Shown one piece after another: positions 9,414-32,048 of a DNA stretch of 32,048 bases. Positions within the stretch are counted from its first letter, which is position 1. The number at the start of each line of letters is the position of its first letter. Origin of the DNA: a virus. The translations under genes and the position numbers were made by a program. The notes under the pieces are model-generated. The model saw only the letters and a list, made by a program, of their open reading frames with translations. It was not told the origin of the DNA and searched no databases. The DNA is taken from the IMG/VR virus record IMGVR_UViG_3300022591_000542, positions 1 through 32,048 of that record; one strand, 5' to 3'.

Positions 9414-10130
9414 ATGAAAAAGATTCTATTAGCACTTGTTCTATTCGCAGTAGCAGGATTAGCACAAGCACAAATTAACCAACAATGCCCGCAATTCACA
9501 GTTAACGGCACACCGCAGTATCAAGCACATCCAGGCGATCAAGAGATTTGTCACATGAATTACGCTGTAATCCACCGTTGCGATGTTAAGGCTCCAGTGG
9601 CAGTATTTGAGCATTTAACAGTAGCCGCAATGACTGGCCCAGCAAAACGTAAAGACAACTTCCACCCAGACGCCGCAGTTACACCTAACTGCTCTGCTAC
9701 CCTAGCTGACTATGCGACAGTGGGTAAGACACATGACCGTGGACATATGGCGCCAGCAGGTAACAACACACAAAGTGATGCTATTATGTCAGAGAGTTTT
9801 AACTTATCTAATATGGTTCCGCAAGTTGCTAATAACAACCGCGGTATTTGGAAACAGTTAGAAACATTTGAACGTCAGTGGGCAACAGCTCCGGGCACAG
9901 ATTTCTACATTATTTCTGGTGGTATTTACGATCAAGGACATCCAGTAACTGGCAACGGTTTAGGTATCCCAACTCGTTTATACAAAGTTGTTATTGAAAA
10001 GAACAGCCGTAAAGTAGAAGCATGGTTAATGCCAAATGCTCCACTACCAGTAGCTGACTTACCTAAGTATCAAGTACCAATGGCCGCTGTAGAGCAAGCT
10101 ACTGGTATGCGTTTTAACTTAGGTCAATAA
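9414..10130 (+). CDS. Secreted DNA/RNA non-specific endonuclease (DRGH family)
   Basis: The gene encodes 238 residues. The first ~20 form a clear Sec signal peptide (MKK, a hydrophobic core, cleavage expected after AQA), so the mature enzyme would be periplasmic or extracellular. The catalytic motif DRGH is at residues 108-111 with His111 as general base, followed by NLSNMVPQ (130-137), the metal-binding Asn region VANNNRGIW (138-146) and Glu150, as in Serratia nuclease and NUC1. The mature length suits a single Endonuclease_NS domain. Cys25, Cys46, Cys56 and Cys93 could form disulfides outside the cytoplasm. The enzyme would cut DNA or RNA to short pieces; in a phage it could recycle nucleotides from lysate, thin viscous DNA, or destroy competing DNA. 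It follows a late promoter motif. Confidence 0.9.
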   Translation: MKKILLALVLFAVAGLAQAQINQQCPQFTVNGTPQYQAHPGDQEICHMNYAVIHRCDVKAPVAVFEHLTVAAMTGPAKRKDNFHPDAAVTPNCSATLADYATVGKTHDRGHMAPAGNNTQSDAIMSESFNLSNMVPQVANNNRGIWKQLETFERQWATAPGTDFYIISGGIYDQGHPVTGNGLGIPTRLYKVVIEKNSRKVEAWLMPNAPLPVADLPKYQVPMAAVEQATGMRFNLGQ

Positions 10131-24230: not shown

Positions 24231-26561
24231 ATGATCACAGTTGTCAAACGTAGTGGGGAACGAGTACCTCTAGACATTAGTAAGATACAGAGACAGGTAG
24301 CATATGGTTGTAGAGGAATTGATGGAGTGAGTCCATCGATGATTGAAATTAAAGCGCAGTTAGAATTACACGACGGTATGACAACCGAAACAATTGATGA
24401 ACTACTATTAAAAGCAATGGTAGACTTAATTGACGAAACAGAAAATCCAGAAATCAATAATGTAAACTATCAATACGTTGCTGGCCGCCAAAAGGTATCT
24501 ATGCTACGTAAAGAAGTGTATGGCGAGTATGATCCTCCTGCGATATACGACATTGTAAAGAAAAACGTAGAAGTAGGAATGTACACTAGTGAGTTATTAG
24601 ATTGGTACACTGAAGATGAATGGAAGATTATTGACTTATTCTTAGATCATTCAAAAGACGAAAGCTACACCTATGCGGCTATTGCTCAACTAGCAGAAAA
24701 ATATCTAGTACAGAATCGTGCTACTGGACAAATTTATGAAACCCCTCAGATACGTTACGCTATCGCGGCAGCTACTGCTTTTCATAACGAACCTAAAGAG
24801 AAAAGATTAAAATATGTTAAAGAATACTATGAATGTGCCAGCGATGGCCACTTTACTCTTGCAACTCCTGTCCTTGCTGGCTTGGGCACTCCAACTAAAC
24901 AGTTTAGCAGTTGTGTTCTCATTTCTAGCGATGACACTTTGGATTCAATATTCGCCGCAGGCGAGATGATGGCAAAGTATGCTAGCAAACGTGCTGGCAT
25001 TGGATTAGAGATTGGTCGTATTCGTCCAGTTGGTGCTCCTATCCGTAATGGTGAAATTAAACATACAGGTCTAATCCCATTCCTAAAGAAATGGTTCGCT
25101 GACTTACGTAGTTGTTCACAAGGCGGTATTCGTAATGCGTCATGTACCGTTACAATGCCTGTGTGGCATGCGCAGTTTGAAGATTTTATTGTACTAAAGA
25201 ACAATCAAGGTACTGAAGAAAATCGTGTTCGTCAAATGGATTATTCAGTTGTTGTTAATAAGATGTTTTGGAATCGTTATCGTAACAATGAAAACATTAC
25301 ATTATTTGATCCGCATGAAGTTCCAGACTTGTATCAAGCATACTATCGTAATAGTGCTGAGTTTGAAAAGCTCTATTTAAAATACGAAGCAGATAAAACT
25401 ACTAAAAAGAAAGTTGTATCAGCAGAAGATATCTTTAAAAATGGTATTCTAAAAGAAAGAACTGATACTGGCCGCATATATCTAGTAAACATTGATAATG
25501 TTATTAACCAAGGGCCGTTTGATACTACTGTAGATCCTATCTACCAAAGTAATTTGTGCCAAGAAATCCTATTGCCCACGAGGCCTTTCCAGCGTATAGA
25601 AGATCCAGAGGGACGTATTGCCCTATGTACGCTGGGTTCAATAAATTGGGGTGCTTTCCGTAACCCAGCAGATATGCGTAAGGCATGTCGTGTACTAGTA
25701 CGTAGTCTAAGTAACTTATTAAGCTATCAAGACTTCTTATCAATCCAAAGCAAACTAGCAAACACAGATTTTGAACCACTAGGTGTTGGTATTACTAACC
25801 TAGCATACTGGCATGCTCGTAAAGGATTTAAGTACGGAACTCCAGAGGCACTTGCTGAAGTTAAAAAGTGGATGGAACATCAAGCATACTTCCTTACTGA
25901 AACTAGTGTCGAGCTTGCTCAAGAAAAGGGCCCATGCGGACGTAGTCAGTACACTTATTACGGTAAGGGAGTATTTCCTTGGGAACGCCGTGCTGTTGGT
26001 AGCAATGAATTAACTGACTTTACTCCTAGTGCTAATTTAGATTGGGAAGGACTACGTGCTAGACTGTTGCAATTTGGTATTAGAAATGCTACACTAATGG
26101 CAGTAGCACCAGTTGAATCAAGCTCTGTTGTACTTAACAGTACTAACGGTATTGAAATGCCAATGGAAATGATTTCAGTTAAAGAATCAAAAGCAGGATC
26201 ATTTGTACAGGTTGTACCAGAGTATCGTCGTTTAAAAAACAAGTATCAAATGATGTGGGAACAATTAGACTGCGTAGACTACTTAAAGACTGCGGCAGTA
26301 CTAGCAGTATATGTTGACCAAAGCCTAAGTACAAATACATTTTATAACCCTGCGTTCTTTGAAGGAGGCAAAGTTCCTGGAACATTAATTGCCAAGAACT
26401 TAATGTTAGCCTACAAGTGGGGATTGAAAACTATCTACTACAGCTTGATTAACAAAGTTGGAGCAAAAGTATCAGTAACTGGAACTCAGTCGATGCCTGT
26501 TATAAGTAGTGAGCCAATAACTATATACGAAGATGACGATTGCGAAGCATGTAAGTTATGA
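24231..26561 (+). CDS. nrdA: Ribonucleoside-diphosphate reductase, alpha subunit (class I)
   Basis: NrdA reduces ribonucleoside diphosphates to deoxyribonucleotides with NrdB and a glutaredoxin or thioredoxin. The 776 residues are full length. Seen: an N-terminal ATP-cone-like start (VVKRSGERVPLDISKIQRQV); redox Cys228 (FSSCVLIS) and Cys466 (ALCTLGSINWG); the active-site NLCQEI with Asn441, Cys443 and Glu445; the Tyr736-Tyr737 pair for radical transfer (KTIYYSLINK); and the C-terminal CxxC tail (DDDCEACKL) that passes electrons from glutaredoxin. All catalytic residues are intact, so the enzyme should be active. It heads a nucleotide cluster with nrdB, glutaredoxin and thyX on one strand. The stop overlaps a small unknown gene (ATGA). 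Confidence 0.97.
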   Translation: MITVVKRSGERVPLDISKIQRQVAYGCRGIDGVSPSMIEIKAQLELHDGMTTETIDELLLKAMVDLIDETENPEINNVNYQYVAGRQKVSMLRKEVYGEYDPPAIYDIVKKNVEVGMYTSELLDWYTEDEWKIIDLFLDHSKDESYTYAAIAQLAEKYLVQNRATGQIYETPQIRYAIAAATAFHNEPKEKRLKYVKEYYECASDGHFTLATPVLAGLGTPTKQFSSCVLISSDDTLDSIFAAGEMMAKYASKRAGIGLEIGRIRPVGAPIRNGEIKHTGLIPFLKKWFADLRSCSQGGIRNASCTVTMPVWHAQFEDFIVLKNNQGTEENRVRQMDYSVVVNKMFWNRYRNNENITLFDPHEVPDLYQAYYRNSAEFEKLYLKYEADKTTKKKVVSAEDIFKNGILKERTDTGRIYLVNIDNVINQGPFDTTVDPIYQSNLCQEILLPTRPFQRIEDPEGRIALCTLGSINWGAFRNPADMRKACRVLVRSLSNLLSYQDFLSIQSKLANTDFEPLGVGITNLAYWHARKGFKYGTPEALAEVKKWMEHQAYFLTETSVELAQEKGPCGRSQYTYYGKGVFPWERRAVGSNELTDFTPSANLDWEGLRARLLQFGIRNATLMAVAPVESSSVVLNSTNGIEMPMEMISVKESKAGSFVQVVPEYRRLKNKYQMMWEQLDCVDYLKTAAVLAVYVDQSLSTNTFYNPAFFEGGKVPGTLIAKNLMLAYKWGLKTIYYSLINKVGAKVSVTGTQSMPVISSEPITIYEDDDCEACKL

Positions 26562-26746
26562 TATACATTAGAGAAGAAGGCGAAATCATTCGCCCAGGAT
26601 TTAACTTCTATCCATTAAACAGTAACCAAGTTGGTTTTGTTTTTAAGTTAAGAAGTTTTGTTTTATTTGTAAGATACAATAAAAAATTAGGTAAATTAAT
26701 ATGTCAAAAGCCCAGTATGATTTTAGAAAGCCAACAAACTATCTAA
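26558..26746 (+). CDS. Possible small protein between nrdA and nrdB
   Basis: A 62-residue frame begins at an ATGA overlap with the nrdA stop and runs 46 bases into nrdB. It reads MIYIREEGEIIRPGFNFYPL and then KLRSFVLFVRYNKKLGK. Without it the nrdA-nrdB gap would be 139 bases, which is long for this genome. The composition is plausible for a small basic protein, but no family is recognised and no strong ribosome-binding site is present. Confidence 0.4.
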   Translation: MIYIREEGEIIRPGFNFYPLNSNQVGFVFKLRSFVLFVRYNKKLGKLICQKPSMILESQQTI

Positions 26747-27801
26747 AGCGCAAGATGTTTTTGGACCCAGCTGGTCCAGTTACAGTACAACGTTTTGAAG
26801 AAGTTAAGTATCCAAAGATACAAAAGTACGAAGAACTAGCCCGAGGTTTCTTTTGGGTTCCAGAAGAAATTAGTCTTACTAAAGATAAGATTGACCATAA
26901 GGAAGCTAGCGATGCTGTTAAGCATATCTTCACTAGCAATTTGTTACGTCAAACAGCATTAGACTCAATTCAAGGTCGTGCTCCGTTTCAAGTATTTGGT
27001 CCAGTTAGTTCTATTCCAGAATTAGAAGCACTAGCACTTACATGGAGTTTCTTTGAAACATCAATTCATAGTAAGTCATATTCACACATTATTCGTAACG
27101 TCTACGGTGTTCCTAAGGAAGAGTTTAACAAGATTCACGACACAGCAGAAATTATTAATATGGCCGCTAGTGTCGGCAAGTACTATGAAGAACTACACGT
27201 TCTTAACATTCGTAAAGAATTAGGTGAAGAAATTGTATTACACGATCATAAGCGAGCTATTTGGATGGCACTACACGCTAGCTATGCTTTAGAAGCCTTA
27301 CGCTTCATGGTATCATTCGCTACAAGTTTAGCAATGGTTGAAAACAAGATCTACATCGGTAATGGTAATATCATTAGTCTTATTTTACAGGACGAATTAT
27401 TACACACCGAGTGGACAGCGTGGCTAATTAATAATGTAATTAAAGACGATCCAGATTTTATTTCTATCGAACAAGAATGCGAAGCTGAAGTATATTCTAT
27501 GTATATGGAAGTGATTGAAGAAGAGAAACAGTGGGCAGACTACTTGTTTAAGTTAGGTCCAGTTATTGGTTTGAACGCAGATATCCTTAAAAACTTTGTT
27601 GATTATACAGCATTTACTCGTTTGAAAGAAATTGGTATCAAGTACTTAGGCGAACATCCTAAGAGCAGTCCTATTCCGTGGTTTAACAAGCACGTGAATA
27701 TTAACAAGAAACAAACAGCATTACAAGAAAACGAATCCACTAACTATGTCATTGGAGTTATGAGTGATAATGTTAGTCGTGATGAATTACCGGAACTATA
27801 A
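26701..27801 (+). CDS. nrdB: Ribonucleoside-diphosphate reductase, beta subunit (class I)
   Basis: NrdB holds the di-iron/tyrosyl-radical cofactor that starts catalysis in NrdA. The gene encodes 366 residues. Seen: LLRQTALDSIQGRAP (first Asp ligand), LALTWSFFETSIHSKSYSHI with the His123 ligand and Tyr127 in the place of the radical tyrosine, KYYEELH around the next Glu, and LQDELLHTEWTAWL (Glu and His ligands). One feature is odd: the Glu-to-His spacing in the FFETSIH helix is four residues, where the well-known SETIHSRSY version of E. coli has three. The C-terminus ends in acidic/aromatic residues as needed for NrdA binding. It is directly followed by glutaredoxin. Confidence 0.95.
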   Translation: MSKAQYDFRKPTNYLKRKMFLDPAGPVTVQRFEEVKYPKIQKYEELARGFFWVPEEISLTKDKIDHKEASDAVKHIFTSNLLRQTALDSIQGRAPFQVFGPVSSIPELEALALTWSFFETSIHSKSYSHIIRNVYGVPKEEFNKIHDTAEIINMAASVGKYYEELHVLNIRKELGEEIVLHDHKRAIWMALHASYALEALRFMVSFATSLAMVENKIYIGNGNIISLILQDELLHTEWTAWLINNVIKDDPDFISIEQECEAEVYSMYMEVIEEEKQWADYLFKLGPVIGLNADILKNFVDYTAFTRLKEIGIKYLGEHPKSSPIPWFNKHVNINKKQTALQENESTNYVIGVMSDNVSRDELPEL

Positions 27802-27803
27802 TT

Positions 27804-28025
27804 ATGAAAGCTATTGTATGGAGTAAAGATGCCTGCCCTTTTTGCGTTCAAGCAAAGGCATTGTTAGATTCTAAAGGAATCGAATACGAAGAACGCAACG
27901 TAATGAAAGACTGGACCAAGGAGCAACTTTTGGAAGCAGTTCCAAATGCGAGAACACTACCGCAAATCTTTTTAGACGAGGAATATGTCGGTGGCTTCAA
28001 CGATCTTAAATCCCGGTTACAGTAG
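27804..28025 (+). CDS. Glutaredoxin
   Basis: The 73-residue protein has the Cys-Pro-Phe-Cys active site at residues 11-14 (WSKDACPFCVQAKALLDSKG), the cis-Pro segment TLPQIFLDEEYVGGF, and a GGFNDLKSRL C-terminus. It is of the short classic Grx type. It would reduce NrdA, whose gene lies upstream. It begins two bases after the nrdB stop. Its last 41 bases overlap the next gene in another frame. Confidence 0.95.
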   Translation: MKAIVWSKDACPFCVQAKALLDSKGIEYEERNVMKDWTKEQLLEAVPNARTLPQIFLDEEYVGGFNDLKSRLQ

Positions 28026-28380
28026 TGGCGCAACCGTTACTATCGGTTCAACCGCTAGTAGCTATAGTGCAGGAACAATTACAGTACCGGCAAGTTATAC
28101 CAGTCAAATAGTCAATGGAGGATCAGCTTGGTCTTCCATAACTACTTCTGCTTATCCAACCCAAGCAAGTCTTAATGTTTCTGGTGATGGCAACATCGAC
28201 GGCAATTTAATAGTAGGCGGCAAAGATATTGCTAAAAGTTTATCAGAAATTGAAAAACGCCTTGCTATACTTGTACCCGATCCGGCTAAACTAGAACATT
28301 TCGAAGCACTCAAAAAAGCATACGAGCATTACAAATTATTAGAAGCATTATGTCAACTACCAAAGAAAGAAGAAAAATAA
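27985..28380 (+). CDS. Probable structural or fibre-related protein, overlaps glutaredoxin
   Basis: The gene has 131 codons. The N-terminal ~65 residues are Ser/Thr/Gly-rich beta-type (NPGYSSGATVTIGSTASSYS), then LNVSGDGNIDGNLIVGGKDI, then a helical end IEKRLAILVPDPAKLEHFEALKKAYEHYK shortened here to its key parts IEKRLAIL and LEHFEALKKAYEHYK. The GNIxGNLxxGGKxI...IExRLAIL pattern is one I associate with virion proteins of T4-like cyanophages. The start at 27985 lies inside the glutaredoxin gene; GTG 27991 is an alternative. A structural gene inserted inside the nucleotide cluster suggests a module boundary. The stop abuts thyX with no gap. Confidence 0.65.
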   Translation: MSVASTILNPGYSSGATVTIGSTASSYSAGTITVPASYTSQIVNGGSAWSSITTSAYPTQASLNVSGDGNIDGNLIVGGKDIAKSLSEIEKRLAILVPDPAKLEHFEALKKAYEHYKLLEALCQLPKKEEK

Positions 28381-29049
28381 ATGAATGTAAAATTACTCAG
28401 TTATAGCCAGCCTACAGAAGAATTTGCTAGTCTAGGAATCGACGATGCGCAGGAACTTATTGCTTACTGCGCACGTGTTAGCAATCCAGCTAATCAGTTT
28501 AATACTGAAACAGCAGACAAGCTAATTCGTTACCTTGTTAAGCATCAACACTGGAGTCCATTAGAAATGGTTTCAGCCTGTTTAGAAATTGAAACAACAC
28601 GTGATATTGCTCGTCAAATTTTACGTCATCGTAGTTTTAGTTTTCAAGAGTTTAGTCAACGATATGCTGATCCAACAAAGGACTTAAACTTTGTTATCCG
28701 CGATGCTCGACTACAAGATACAAAGAATCGTCAGAACTCGATTGAAACAGAAGACGAAGCATTACAAGCATGGTGGACAGCTAAACAGCAGGCCGTGATT
28801 GATCTTGTAACAGCAACCTACGGCGAAGCTATTGACAAGGGTATTGCTAAAGAACAAGCTCGGGCGGTATTGCCAGAAGGTAACACAGTAAGTCGTTTGT
28901 ACATGAACGGTACTTTACGTAGCTGGGTACATTTTATCGAACTACGTAGTGCTAATGGTACACAAAAAGAACATCAACTAATTGCTAAGGAATGCGCCTG
29001 CGTAATTGCTAAAGTATTCCCAATGATTAATGAATTTATAAGCGAATAA
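28381..29049 (+). CDS. thyX: FAD-dependent thymidylate synthase
   Basis: ThyX makes dTMP from dUMP using FAD and methylene-tetrahydrofolate. The gene encodes 222 residues, the normal length. The signature RHRxxSxxxxSxR is present as RHRSFSFQEFSQR (residues 82-94), flanked by IETTRDIARQIL. HWSPLEMV, PEGNTVSRLYMNGTLRSW and FIELRSANGTQKEHQLIA give the substrate-binding strands and the catalytic Ser/Arg. It continues the deoxynucleotide pathway begun by NrdAB. The gene starts immediately after the previous stop. Confidence 0.96.
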   Translation: MNVKLLSYSQPTEEFASLGIDDAQELIAYCARVSNPANQFNTETADKLIRYLVKHQHWSPLEMVSACLEIETTRDIARQILRHRSFSFQEFSQRYADPTKDLNFVIRDARLQDTKNRQNSIETEDEALQAWWTAKQQAVIDLVTATYGEAIDKGIAKEQARAVLPEGNTVSRLYMNGTLRSWVHFIELRSANGTQKEHQLIAKECACVIAKVFPMINEFISE

Positions 29050-29057
29050 GGAAAAAT

Positions 29058-29348
29058 ATGCTAATCAATAAAGGTTTCTCCAACGGAGATGTAGTAAGTG
29101 TTAAATTAATTAACGGTGACGAACTCATCGCACGTTTCGAAGAAGAAGATGCTGAATCAGTAACTATCGCTCGCCCGCTAGCCTTAACAATGGGCGCACA
29201 GGGCTTGGGTATGATTCCGTGGTGTTTCTTAGGCAAAGATGACAAGATTGTGTTACTTAAGAAAAACACGTTTTTTGTAGTGGCTAGCAAGAAGGAAGCC
29301 GCTGATCAATACTTAGAAGGTACCACCGGAATTGCTCTGGTTAAATAA
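29058..29348 (+). CDS. Conserved-type small phage protein (Sm-like?), unknown
   Basis: The 96-residue protein has an AAGGAAAA site before ATG 29058. The start (GFSNGDVVSVKLINGDELIA) looks like an Sm/SH3-type beta-barrel strand pair, followed by LGMIPWCFLGKDDKIVLL and ADQYLEGTTGIALVK. I associate this protein with T4-like marine phages. A role in RNA binding or in the virion cannot be decided. Confidence 0.75.
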   Translation: MLINKGFSNGDVVSVKLINGDELIARFEEEDAESVTIARPLALTMGAQGLGMIPWCFLGKDDKIVLLKKNTFFVVASKKEAADQYLEGTTGIALVK

Positions 29349-29366
29349 GCATAATAGGAGATTATT

Positions 29367-29978
29367 ATGCCAACCGTAGTTACATTAACAGGACCAGGAA
29401 CAGCAACCGTTACAGATGATGCGGCGGCAGCTATTATTTTACAGACCGCAGAATTAGAAAGATTTCGGGCTGTAGTTGCCAACAACGTGGGTGTCATGGT
29501 CGATCTTAAGAAAGAAATTTCTGCGTTATCAGACGCATGTAACACGCTTAAAACTTCTATTGGTAGTATCGCAACAATGAGCGCAGGTACTAATGCTATC
29601 ATTGCCATGCAGGCCGCTAACCAAATTAAGACAAATAACTTTCAGGTACAGGCAACTAAGGAAGCGTTGGCTCGTACAGATCAGCCTGTTCCCGTTGAGC
29701 CAACTGTTAAAGAACAATTAACTACTGCGGTTAAAGATAGCGCAGTCCTTATGGAAACTGCGCAAGCAGAAGGTGCTATAACAAATCAGATTAATGTAAT
29801 GATTGGTAGCTTTACAACATGGATTGGTGGATTCTTACCGAGCTTTACTGATGTCGGCGAATGGATTAAACGTAAGTATCTAGCAGTAATTCAACCTAAT
29901 CCACCAAGCAACGCTCAAGATATCGCAACTAAATTAAACAGTCAAGCAGGTACTGCTGACAACGGTAACATCGGATAA
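29367..29978 (+). CDS. Helical protein, paralogue A
   Basis: The gene encodes 203 residues with a TAGGAG site. A short beta-type start (VVTLTGPGTATVTDDAAAAI) is followed by long helices (LKKEISALSDACNTLKTSIG, MQAANQIKTNNFQVQATKEA), a more hydrophobic stretch (IGSFTTWIGGFLPSF) and the end PPSNAQDIATKLNSQAG. The next gene encodes a protein of the same length and layout that shares ELERF/VLEQF, AMQ.A..I.TNNF, QAEGAI and PPSNAQDIATK, so the pair arose by tandem duplication. They lie directly upstream of the PAAR-hydrolase gene. They could be baseplate, spike-loading or chaperone proteins; this is inference. Confidence 0.75.
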   Translation: MPTVVTLTGPGTATVTDDAAAAIILQTAELERFRAVVANNVGVMVDLKKEISALSDACNTLKTSIGSIATMSAGTNAIIAMQAANQIKTNNFQVQATKEALARTDQPVPVEPTVKEQLTTAVKDSAVLMETAQAEGAITNQINVMIGSFTTWIGGFLPSFTDVGEWIKRKYLAVIQPNPPSNAQDIATKLNSQAGTADNGNIG

Positions 29979-29979
29979 G

Positions 29980-30597
29980 ATGGCACACGGTGACATTATA
30001 ACAATGACATGGACTGGAAATCCAACCACTCCAGTTCCTGCTACATTAACTGTCGCTGATACTTATGGTGCCGCAGTAATTGAACAAACTTTGGTGTTAG
30101 AGCAATTTCGAAATGATGTTGCCGCGTTAGGTGATCTATTAATAGAGTTGAAGAAAACTGTTGCTACTATGAATTATTTGGTTAGTACTTACAATAAGGC
30201 AATATTATCTATATCTGCACAAAGTGGACAACGAAATGCTATTGCGGCAATGCAGGTGGCATCAACTATACAGACCAATAATTTTTATACAGCAGTGCAG
30301 GGAGAAAATCCTACTATGCCTAGTACTGTACAACAATTAGAAACGACTGCTAAAGACGGAACAACGCTACACGGAGTATCCCAAGCAGAAGGTGCTATTA
30401 TTTTGCAGACCAATGTTATGAACCAATATTTCCAATCGTTTGTTACTGACGCATTGGAGCCGTTTACTAGTGTACTGTCTAACTACTCTGATAGATTAAA
30501 AACAGCAATATTAGGTAATCCTCCTAGTAATGCGCAAGATATCGCAACTAAGGCGGCAACTCAAGCCGGTGTTCTTGATTCTGGAAATACAAAATAA
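29980..30597 (+). CDS. Helical protein, paralogue B
   Basis: The gene encodes 205 residues and starts one base after its paralogue. Shared features: DTYGAAVIEQTLVLEQFRND against DDAAAAIILQTAELERFR, LLIELKKTVATMNYLVSTYN, AAMQVASTIQTNNFYTAVQG, SQAEGAIILQTNVMNQYF, and a final PPSNAQDIATKAATQAG. Both proteins end in a short D(S/N)GN tail. Divergence is considerable, so the duplication is old. The stop overlaps the next start (TAATG), linking it in translation to the PAAR-hydrolase. Confidence 0.75.
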   Translation: MAHGDIITMTWTGNPTTPVPATLTVADTYGAAVIEQTLVLEQFRNDVAALGDLLIELKKTVATMNYLVSTYNKAILSISAQSGQRNAIAAMQVASTIQTNNFYTAVQGENPTMPSTVQQLETTAKDGTTLHGVSQAEGAIILQTNVMNQYFQSFVTDALEPFTSVLSNYSDRLKTAILGNPPSNAQDIATKAATQAGVLDSGNTK

Positions 30598-31625
30598 TGT
30601 CGGACTATTCAGTAGGACGTGTAAACAAAGATAAGGCCGCAAGTTTAATCGAAACTGGCGCAAAGACTGTATGGGTAAATTCAGATGCCCTTCCCGGAGT
30701 TAATCAATATAAAACTGCCGCTATCAAAGGCAGTATGATGAAAGGACCTCCTAACAAGGGCGATGTCGTTGTATCTAGTAATGTAACTGTATTTGTTGAA
30801 AATAAAGAAATTGCCATTGAAGGCGCAGTAACAGCACAAGGTAGACACGTAGGACCAGGAAGTCAGAATGTATTTGCTGGCAATGGTGGAAGTATATCTA
30901 GTGTATTTGTTTTTAGTCGTCCCGAAGTTATTGCTAATACTCCTACTCCACAACAGGCGGCACAATCTGCTAGCTGGAGTCAAATTGCTACTAACGGTAC
31001 CGTTGCTCTCCCTCCCACTGATGCTCCTGAAATTAATACAAGTCCACTAGGTGCTCAAGCAACTGAAATCAAAGCGTTCCTAGATAGAATTTTACCAGAA
31101 GCATCAAAATGGACTCGCGGAGCTCAACCGCAAGGACAAGGTGGCAATCAAAACATTATGGGAATCTTTAAAGACCTTAATGTACTACAATGGGCAAATA
31201 GTGATTCAGTTCCGTGGTGCGCCGCATTTGTAAACTTTGTTTTAAAAAATTGCGGATACAAGTACACTCAAGATTTATCAGTAGCACCTTTCTTAACTAA
31301 ACCTGAGAAATGGGGTGCTAATATATTCTACTCTGCTAAGACAGGTGGCTCTAGTTGGATGCAGGCTCAACCCGGTGATATCGCTGTTTGGGATTATGAT
31401 CGTGGTCATACTCCTAGCCATGTAAATTTTGTATATTCCTATTCAAACGGATTCTTAACATTTTGCGGTGGCAATCAAAGTGGTAAAGCACTAAACAATA
31501 ATAACCCTAGCGGCAGTTCAGTAACTGCTGGGTCAAAATGGAATCCTAACATAGACAAATCTAATGCGGGCGCCGGTACATATCATCTAATGGCATTACT
31601 AAGACCGCAACAAAGGGGAACATGA
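30597..31625 (+). CDS. PAAR-like spike tip fused to a CHAP-type peptidoglycan hydrolase
   Basis: The gene encodes 342 residues. Residues ~15-100 look like a PAAR-type spike-tip domain: MMKGPPNKGDVVVSSNVTVF, AIEGAVTAQGRHVGPGSQNV and VFAGNGG are the pattern of the beta-hairpin cone. After a Pro/Thr-rich linker, residues ~155-340 form a cysteine hydrolase of the CHAP/TIGR02594 kind: VPWCAAFVNFVL with Cys208, QPGDIAVWDY, PSHVNFVYSY with His275, and FCGGNQSG. In T4 the tip protein gp5.4 is separate and the lysozyme belongs to gp5; here a wall-cutting domain sits on the tip itself. It would open the peptidoglycan during injection. A lysis role is possible but less likely because of the PAAR domain. 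The stop overlaps the next start (ATGA). Confidence 0.85.
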   Translation: MSDYSVGRVNKDKAASLIETGAKTVWVNSDALPGVNQYKTAAIKGSMMKGPPNKGDVVVSSNVTVFVENKEIAIEGAVTAQGRHVGPGSQNVFAGNGGSISSVFVFSRPEVIANTPTPQQAAQSASWSQIATNGTVALPPTDAPEINTSPLGAQATEIKAFLDRILPEASKWTRGAQPQGQGGNQNIMGIFKDLNVLQWANSDSVPWCAAFVNFVLKNCGYKYTQDLSVAPFLTKPEKWGANIFYSAKTGGSSWMQAQPGDIAVWDYDRGHTPSHVNFVYSYSNGFLTFCGGNQSGKALNNNNPSGSSVTAGSKWNPNIDKSNAGAGTYHLMALLRPQQRGT

Positions 31626-31711
31626 TTATATTTTGGGCATTGACATTTGTTATAGCCTGCGCTATAATATATGCTATGATAGTTGGCAAGGACTACTTTG
31701 AGGATAAGTAA
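31622..31711 (+). CDS. 29-residue single-pass membrane peptide
   Basis: The ATGA overlap with the preceding hydrolase gene and an AAGGGG seven bases before the start support translation. The peptide, MIIFWALTFVIACAIIYAMI followed by VGKDYFEDK, is one membrane helix with a short charged tail. It might be a small holin-like or accessory lysis peptide; no family is recognised. The tmRNA promoter lies inside this reading frame. Confidence 0.6.
   Translation: MIIFWALTFVIACAIIYAMIVGKDYFEDK
31640..31668 (+). promoter_or_regulatory. Perfect consensus sigma70 promoter for the tmRNA gene
   Basis: TTGACA (31640-31645), a 17-base spacer, and TATAAT (31663-31668). Both hexamers match the consensus exactly. 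Transcription would start near 31675, about 40 bases before the first structured part of the tmRNA. It points to expression by unmodified host polymerase, so from early infection. Confidence 0.85.
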
Positions 31712-31716
31712 TTTTA

Positions 31717-32048
31717 TCCGTAAAGCGTACAGGCATAGCTAGTTCAGTTTAATATCAGACGGGGGTAGTTTTTTACGGGCCCGTCAAAAAGAATTGTTGT
31801 AACTCCTTTCTAGTAAAGGCATTGTGGACCCGGGTTCAATTCCCGGCATCTCCACCGAAGCATATTGAAGAACCAGCTCGGTCCCCTTGAAATAATAGGA
31901 ATGATGTCTGGGACATAGGACTTAGTATGCTTCGTTGGGGATGATCGGCTTCGACATGGTGAGATAGCGAAGAAGGCAACACGGTAATGTGAAAACCGTT
32001 AGGATTGGGGTAACCCGGTCGTAGAAGCAAATAACGTAAAAGCAAACG
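31717..32048 (+). ncRNA. ssrA: Circularly permuted (two-piece) tmRNA gene, 3' end cut by the window
   Basis: tmRNA rescues stalled ribosomes and tags the unfinished protein. The order here is permuted: acceptor piece first (31717-31856), an 80-base intervening segment (31857-31936), then the coding piece from 31937. Acceptor stem: GGGGATG (31937-31943) pairs with CATCTCC (31847-31853), all seven positions, including a G3:U70 pair, the alanine identity mark. The T arm is CCGGG-TTCAATT-CCCGG (31830-31846). GGGGATGATCGGCTTCGAC matches the tmRNA 5' consensus. P2 is formed by CATGGTG (31955-31961) with CATTGTG (31820-31826). CCGTAAA/TTTACGG (31718-31724 with 31772-31778) and GACGGG/CCCGTC (31758-31763 with 31780-31785) form an H-type pseudoknot. 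In the intervening segment CGAAGCATA (31856-31864) pairs with TATGCTTCG (31926-31934). The tag resume codon is GCA at 32042, then AAC, so the tag begins Ala-Asn; the rest is outside the window. The 3' terminal A of CCA is not encoded. Confidence 0.93.

Follow-up and report, generated by a model that had tools for sequence, protein, structure and literature searches.

A probable two-piece, circularly permuted tmRNA gene in a phage and the virus lineage to which it belongs

The stretch of DNA analysed here, referred to as the window, is the complete IMG/VR record IMGVR_UViG_3300022591_000542 (32,048 bases), from a phage that is represented solely in metagenomes. We are confident that its 3′ end carries a phage-encoded tmRNA gene of the circularly permuted, two-piece type, which looks functional as judged from the sequence. 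The gene is cut by the end of the window and is complete in a second contig, IMGVR_UViG_3300023311_000174 (12,274 bases), referred to as L002. The locus contains the following features.

31622..31711, plus strand: micro-ORF for a hydrophobic, membrane-like peptide of 29 aa, MIIFWALTFVIACAIIYAMIVGKDYFEDK (sequence reading)
31640..31668, plus strand: perfect sigma-70 promoter, TTGACA-17-TATAAT (L002 5709-5737)
31729..31854, plus strand: leader and acceptor (3′) piece, including one P2 strand (the RF01850 match starts at L002 5798, equal to window 31729; the RF04321 match starts at 31795)
31830..31846, plus strand: T arm, CCGGG-TTCAATT-CCCGG (sequence and RF04321; the stem covaries in relatives)
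31847..31853, plus strand: acceptor 3′ strand CATCTCC, with U70 (sequence and RF04321; stem variants across relatives)
31854, plus strand: discriminator A, A73 (sequence)
31855..31936, plus strand: intervening segment of 82 nt, with no ORF filling it (closing-helix analysis)
31856-31868 / 31922-31934, plus strand: closing helix of the intervening segment (helix analysis)
31937..31943, plus strand: acceptor 5′ strand GGGGATG, with G3, at the 5′ end of the coding piece (sequence and RF04321)
31937..32048, plus strand: coding (5′) piece, cut by the contig end (it runs on in L002 to about 6210, which would be window 32141)
31981..31999, plus strand: helix ACGG/CCGU, corresponding in position to the first pk1 stem (supported by compensatory changes among relatives)
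32003..32020, plus strand: extra hairpin GATTGGG-GTAA-CCCGGTC, an insert relative to the Rfam model
32042..32048, plus strand: start of the tag, GCA AAC G.. (complete tag in L002)

The sequence and the Rfam models agree that the acceptor/T-arm piece is encoded 5′ of the GGGGATG coding piece, which is the gene order that a preliminary description of this DNA had proposed. The 7-bp acceptor stem and the T arm named there are likewise borne out: CATCTCC pairs with GGGGATG, and the resulting stem carries a G3·U70 pair that, with A73, constitutes alanine identity elements. The encoded 3′ end after A73 reads CCG (to 31857), CCA being absent from the gene. The helix closing the intervening segment extends to as many as 13 bp (CGAAGCATATTGA / TTAGTATGCTTCG), compared with a median of 3 bp in shuffled segments, and the 9-bp helix originally described is its perfect part. 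The H-type pseudoknot claimed at the same time stands as far as its first stem, where relatives show compensatory changes; beyond that stem lies the extra hairpin, which also occurs in some related phage tmRNAs. The resume codon GCA occupies 32042-32044.

Promoter sites with at least 11 of 12 matches lie upstream of 35% of viral tmRNAs, compared with 4.6% of control windows. The micro-ORF overlaps the stop of the preceding CHAP/PAAR ORF and lies outside the RNA, and the perfect sigma-70 promoter of the tmRNA sits within its coding sequence. Similar membrane micro-ORFs, of 23-37 aa, are present within other viral intervening segments (L061, L100, L008, L016 and L087).

Searches with Rfam models, one of the checks suggested in the preliminary description, gave significant matches. 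Window 31795-32048 scores 101 bits with RF04321, the Rfam model for permuted tmRNA (E 8e-19; cut-off 47); the match ends early where the contig end cuts the 3′ part of the gene. In an IMG/VR scan with a 23-base piece of the locus, the sole other match was L002, which shares 100% identity with window 25932-32048 across 6,117 bases and extends 6 kb beyond it. The whole gene in L002 matches RF01850 (beta_tmRNA) over the full model length with 139.8 bits (cut-off 84), and RF04321 with 125.8 bits. ARAGORN, the other program suggested, calls no tmRNA on the window alone, where the gene is truncated; on L002 it reports ‘tmRNA*’ with the tag ANDEQFALAA-stop. The full tag frame and stop expected downstream of 32048 are therefore found in L002, where the 3′ end of the gene is formed by a terminator hairpin followed by T residues. 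This complete gene upholds the original reading of a phage-encoded, circularly permuted two-piece tmRNA. On the sequence evidence, the locus is not a chance match, and it is not a piece of host DNA at the edge of a contig, since L002 completes the gene and then continues through the terminator hairpin into groES and other phage genes.

Upstream of the tmRNA, the window encodes a CHAP protein (30597-31622) that also matches PAAR weakly, along with thyX and the genes for a class Ia ribonucleotide reductase, with phage structural, tail-fibre, nuclease and methyltransferase genes farther upstream. Downstream, L002 encodes GroES, a NUMOD3 homing-endonuclease-motif protein (minus strand), an NMN adenylyltransferase-NUDIX protein and NAMPT, and phage genes thus flank the tmRNA on both sides. 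The CHAP/PAAR protein, used as a route to relatives, yielded L002 only. A role for groES as a constant tmRNA neighbour was considered and rejected, as any match was found in 8 of 25 records, 7 of them above the cut-off. The best match of the L002 NAMPT is in Acidovorax phage ACP17, in which no permuted tmRNA was found. The window also encodes, at 9414-10127, a DNA/RNA non-specific endonuclease (Endonuclease_NS, E 8e-39), which might degrade nucleic acids of the host and in this way give rise to nonstop messages.

The earlier label ‘T4-like’ draws its support from relatives. No T4 hallmark gene, Gp23 included, was found in the window, and the T4-type capsid protein Gp23 is absent from both the window and L002, each a fragment of the phage genome. 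Gp23, the T4 major capsid protein, is present in 15 of the 25 tmRNA-linked records tested, including jumbo contigs of up to 364 kb. The NrdA of the window is closest to that of Xanthomonas phage X1 (61% identity), followed by Stenotrophomonas phages of the IME-SM1 group; two members of this group, Mendera and Moby, are called T4-like or described as sharing T4 characteristics by their authors. A T4-type ancestry of the window’s phage is likely on the basis of these relatives.

The tmRNA belongs to a large set of viral genes. A search with back-translated ANDEQFALAA returned at least 120 viral stretches, in most of which ARAGORN calls a permuted tmRNA with this tag. A tag-free pattern also returned at least 120 viral stretches, with varied tags that include ANDSQFALAA, ANDEKFALAA, ANDSRFALAA and ANDELFALAA; their middle is variable and nearly all end in (F/Y)ALAA. 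ANDEQFALAA as a fixed phage tag was consequently discarded as a search artefact. The lineage comprises over 200 IMG/VR loci, on T4-type contigs of up to 364 kb. Among 84,980 bacterial and archaeal species genomes, the ANDEQFALAA pattern gave 16 matches, 15 of them in one-piece genes and one in a permuted gene, the latter on a 3-kb MAG contig that nests among viruses in the tree. This viral-type permuted tmRNA (L128/L139, CAIMTR010000195.1) comes from a Gammaproteobacteria MAG. The same MAG has a further, standard tmRNA on a different contig, and the 3-kb contig is therefore probably phage.

A tree was built from 199 alignment columns of 82 viral sequences, 32 permuted bacterial sequences and 14 standard ones. 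In it, 79 of the viral sequences fall into two main groups that are separate from bacteria and are joined only by the MAG contig; the deep branches are weakly supported. The window falls in a virus-only set of nine (SH-aLRT 96). Of the remaining three viral sequences, L274 (tag ANDNTVGSQAQALAA) and L200 cluster with tmRNAs of alphaproteobacterial type, which points to an independent second origin of permuted tmRNA in phages. Covariation among relatives is strong: both partners vary in 15 of 17 consensus pairs, and 98.5% of cells are paired. The acceptor stems of 186 viral loci comprise 17 combinations, nearly all with G1-C72, G2-C71 and G3·U70, and another stem survey gave 11 types, every one with these pairs. 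Neither count is unbiased, and G3·U70 conservation is somewhat overstated, as the stem finder required or favoured TCC/CCC endings. Taken at the level of sequence, the window’s gene is a member of a new, virus-only lineage near, yet apart from, betaproteobacterial permuted tmRNA.

Cultured phages also carry such genes. Permuted tmRNAs were identified by Rfam and/or ARAGORN in Stenotrophomonas phage IME-SM1 (L319, KR560069 149260-149512, 120 bits), Xanthomonas phage X1 (L320, OQ427096 121009-121337, 77 bits) and Synechococcus phage BUCT-ZZ01 (L318, ON615601 about 116900-117300), and the three GenBank records have no tmRNA feature annotated at the locus. Compared at the DNA level with 50,697 phage records, the window’s locus had no significant match, and BUCT-ZZ01 was recovered in such a search only with a query from a more typical relative. 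All three phages share a permuted tmRNA with the window’s phage and have a T4-type Gp23; IME-SM1 and X1 also resemble it in NrdA. ARAGORN reads the tags as VAANDDSYTVRIAA (L319), VAANDADYSVARYA (L320) and ANDETFSMALAA (L318), where the leading VA of the first two as printed may precede the true start. The last residues of the IME-SM1 and X1 tags are ...RIAA or ...ARYA, and those of the BUCT-ZZ01 tag are ...ALAA, as in the window’s phage (L002). The hosts of IME-SM1 and X1 are gammaproteobacteria, which normally have a one-piece tmRNA of their own, so that the phage RNA could be told from that of the host.

The viral genes differ from bacterial ones in their intervening segments. Those of the bacterial permuted genes measured span 8-50 nt, whereas in viruses 60-120 nt is the usual length and 534 nt the longest, with the MAG contig L128/L139 (88-nt segment) counted as viral. 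An exception among bacteria is an alphaproteobacterial-type gene in a sampled genome (L305, G387:C7:3477-3808), whose segment is unusually long (about 130 nt by eye) and shows no obvious ORF; the tag frame of this gene is also long. Most of the 159 distinct viral segments have a closing helix of 10-15 bp, compared with a shuffled median of 3.

Complete protein genes are present in 22 of these 159 segments, the window’s own segment having none. The ORFs span 37-152 codons and fill 78-96% of the segment, which dinucleotide shuffles rarely equal. They start just past the CCA end and stop 1-13 nt ahead of the coding piece. A clear Shine-Dalgarno motif precedes 16 of the 22, typically CCATAAGGA, a sequence that doubles as the 5′ strand of the helix closing the segment. 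Several unrelated protein families are represented, including a DUF2061 membrane protein in L019 (Pfam E 3.5e-20), a CxxCxxCC protein in L017 (E 1e-5) and a homing-endonuclease-like HNH protein in L281 (PHROG E 2.6e-15). The loci are L019 and L035 (223-nt segment), L021/L077, L253/L255/L068, L284/L262 and L017/L062/L075, together with L007, L010, L022, L112, L114, L116, L119, L187, L016, L227 and L281. By their pN/pS values, the homologous segment genes that could be tested show purifying selection: the ratio is 0.08-0.26 within L019/L035, L021/L077 and L253/L255/L068, and 0.36 for the more distant pair L284/L262. These ORFs are very likely real genes. It is probable, though less firmly so, that the excised intervening segment acts as a gene cassette in this virus tmRNA lineage, in which case the precursor would be both tmRNA and messenger.

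The preliminary description had implied that a permuted tmRNA in a phage would be novel. Two-piece tmRNA has already been published for several marine phages, among them OM43 phage Melnitz and Pelagibacter phage Mosig, in a study whose ARAGORN count gives 53 two-piece forms among 133 unique tmRNA structures of phages (Buchholz et al. 2022, PMC9004378). According to that study, the Melnitz-type gene is, like that of the window, phage-encoded and circularly permuted; it resides in T4-type myophages, is kin to alphaproteobacterial tmRNA and has a glutamine riboswitch alongside. The window’s gene differs in its match to the betaproteobacterial model (139.8 bits) and its separate virus clade, and no riboswitch was found in the window or L002. 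It resembles betaproteobacterial permuted tmRNA (RF01850 / RF04321) in gene order, P2, T arm, tag style and terminal hairpin, whereas the viral sequences form their own groups and have longer intervening segments. The tmRNAs of Bxz1-group mycobacteriophages and of Bacillus phage G are standard one-piece molecules and are not known to be permuted. They are phage-encoded like that of the window and represent a different lineage (PMC4131195).

The kind of RNA is thus known; what is new is the virus lineage, the unannotated copies in isolated phages and the segment genes, and some of the isolates may already be listed in the supplementary tables of PMC9004378. No prior description was found of the beta-like virus lineage with its enlarged, closed segment, and no earlier report of genes in an intervening segment, in the largely open-access literature that was searched.

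None of 21 virus records was found to encode SmpB; 20 of these records span 100-357 kb, and most may be fragments. This count rests on relatives, and both contigs of the window’s phage are genome fragments. The SspB adaptor was likewise found in 0 of 25 viral records. It follows that the phage RNA would rely on SmpB and ClpXP of the host, in keeping with the dependence on host SmpB originally proposed. The accompanying suggestion of a phage-specific degradation tag is unsupported because ANDEQFALAA is an ordinary ...FALAA degron, found in bacteria too.

The most economical function would be ordinary trans-translation that recycles ribosomes during infection. Host RNA polymerase would transcribe the gene early, and host RNase P and a 3′ nuclease would excise the 82-nt intervening segment. 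The CCG end would be completed by the host CCA-adding enzyme and the RNA charged by AlaRS. Host SmpB and EF-Tu would then bring it to ribosomes stalled on broken mRNA, and the tag would send the product to host ClpXP. The likeliest benefit may be that ribosomes are kept circulating while host messages are destroyed and host tmRNA is limiting or attacked; the reason for carriage may be host tmRNA that is limiting, damaged or attacked.

The RNA might instead serve as a decoy, tying up SmpB or AlaRS of the host and so blocking its trans-translation, a role proposed for the tag-less tmRNA-like RNA of mycobacteriophage DS6A. With no phage SmpB found in the records searched, the RNA would have to compete for that of the host, and an expressed tmRNA tRNA-like domain inhibits tmRNA, in work cited in PMC4131195. 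However, almost all viral relatives keep a full tag frame ending in ...ALAA, which a decoy would not need, and we consider this role unlikely. Less probable still, at long odds, is a recently captured host tmRNA gene, acquired by transduction or imprecise excision and carried as a non-functional passenger. Some Betaproteobacteria, such as Limnobacter and Uliginosibacterium, share the ANDEQFALAA tag, but their copies are one-piece, and the sole permuted copy lies on the MAG contig within the viral clade. Moreover, viral members preserve pairing through compensatory changes, and no integrase was recognised among the scanned L002 genes. That host DNA was joined to phage DNA by misassembly or a contig-end error, as the position of the gene at the extreme end of the window could suggest, is very unlikely, because the longer-reaching L002 reads through into groES, NAMPT and NMN adenylyltransferase/NUDIX genes of phage type, so that the tmRNA has phage genes to its left and right, and relatives lie on hundreds of viral contigs.

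Trans-translation by a phage-encoded RNA is thus our preferred reading. Phage two-piece tmRNA is a widespread virus lineage and no marine oddity, and it is mostly unannotated even in cultured phages. Why lytic phages carry a ribosome-rescue RNA is testable in cultured BUCT-ZZ01 or in T4-like Stenotrophomonas phages. The segment genes, if true, would represent a gene-within-RNA-gene arrangement.
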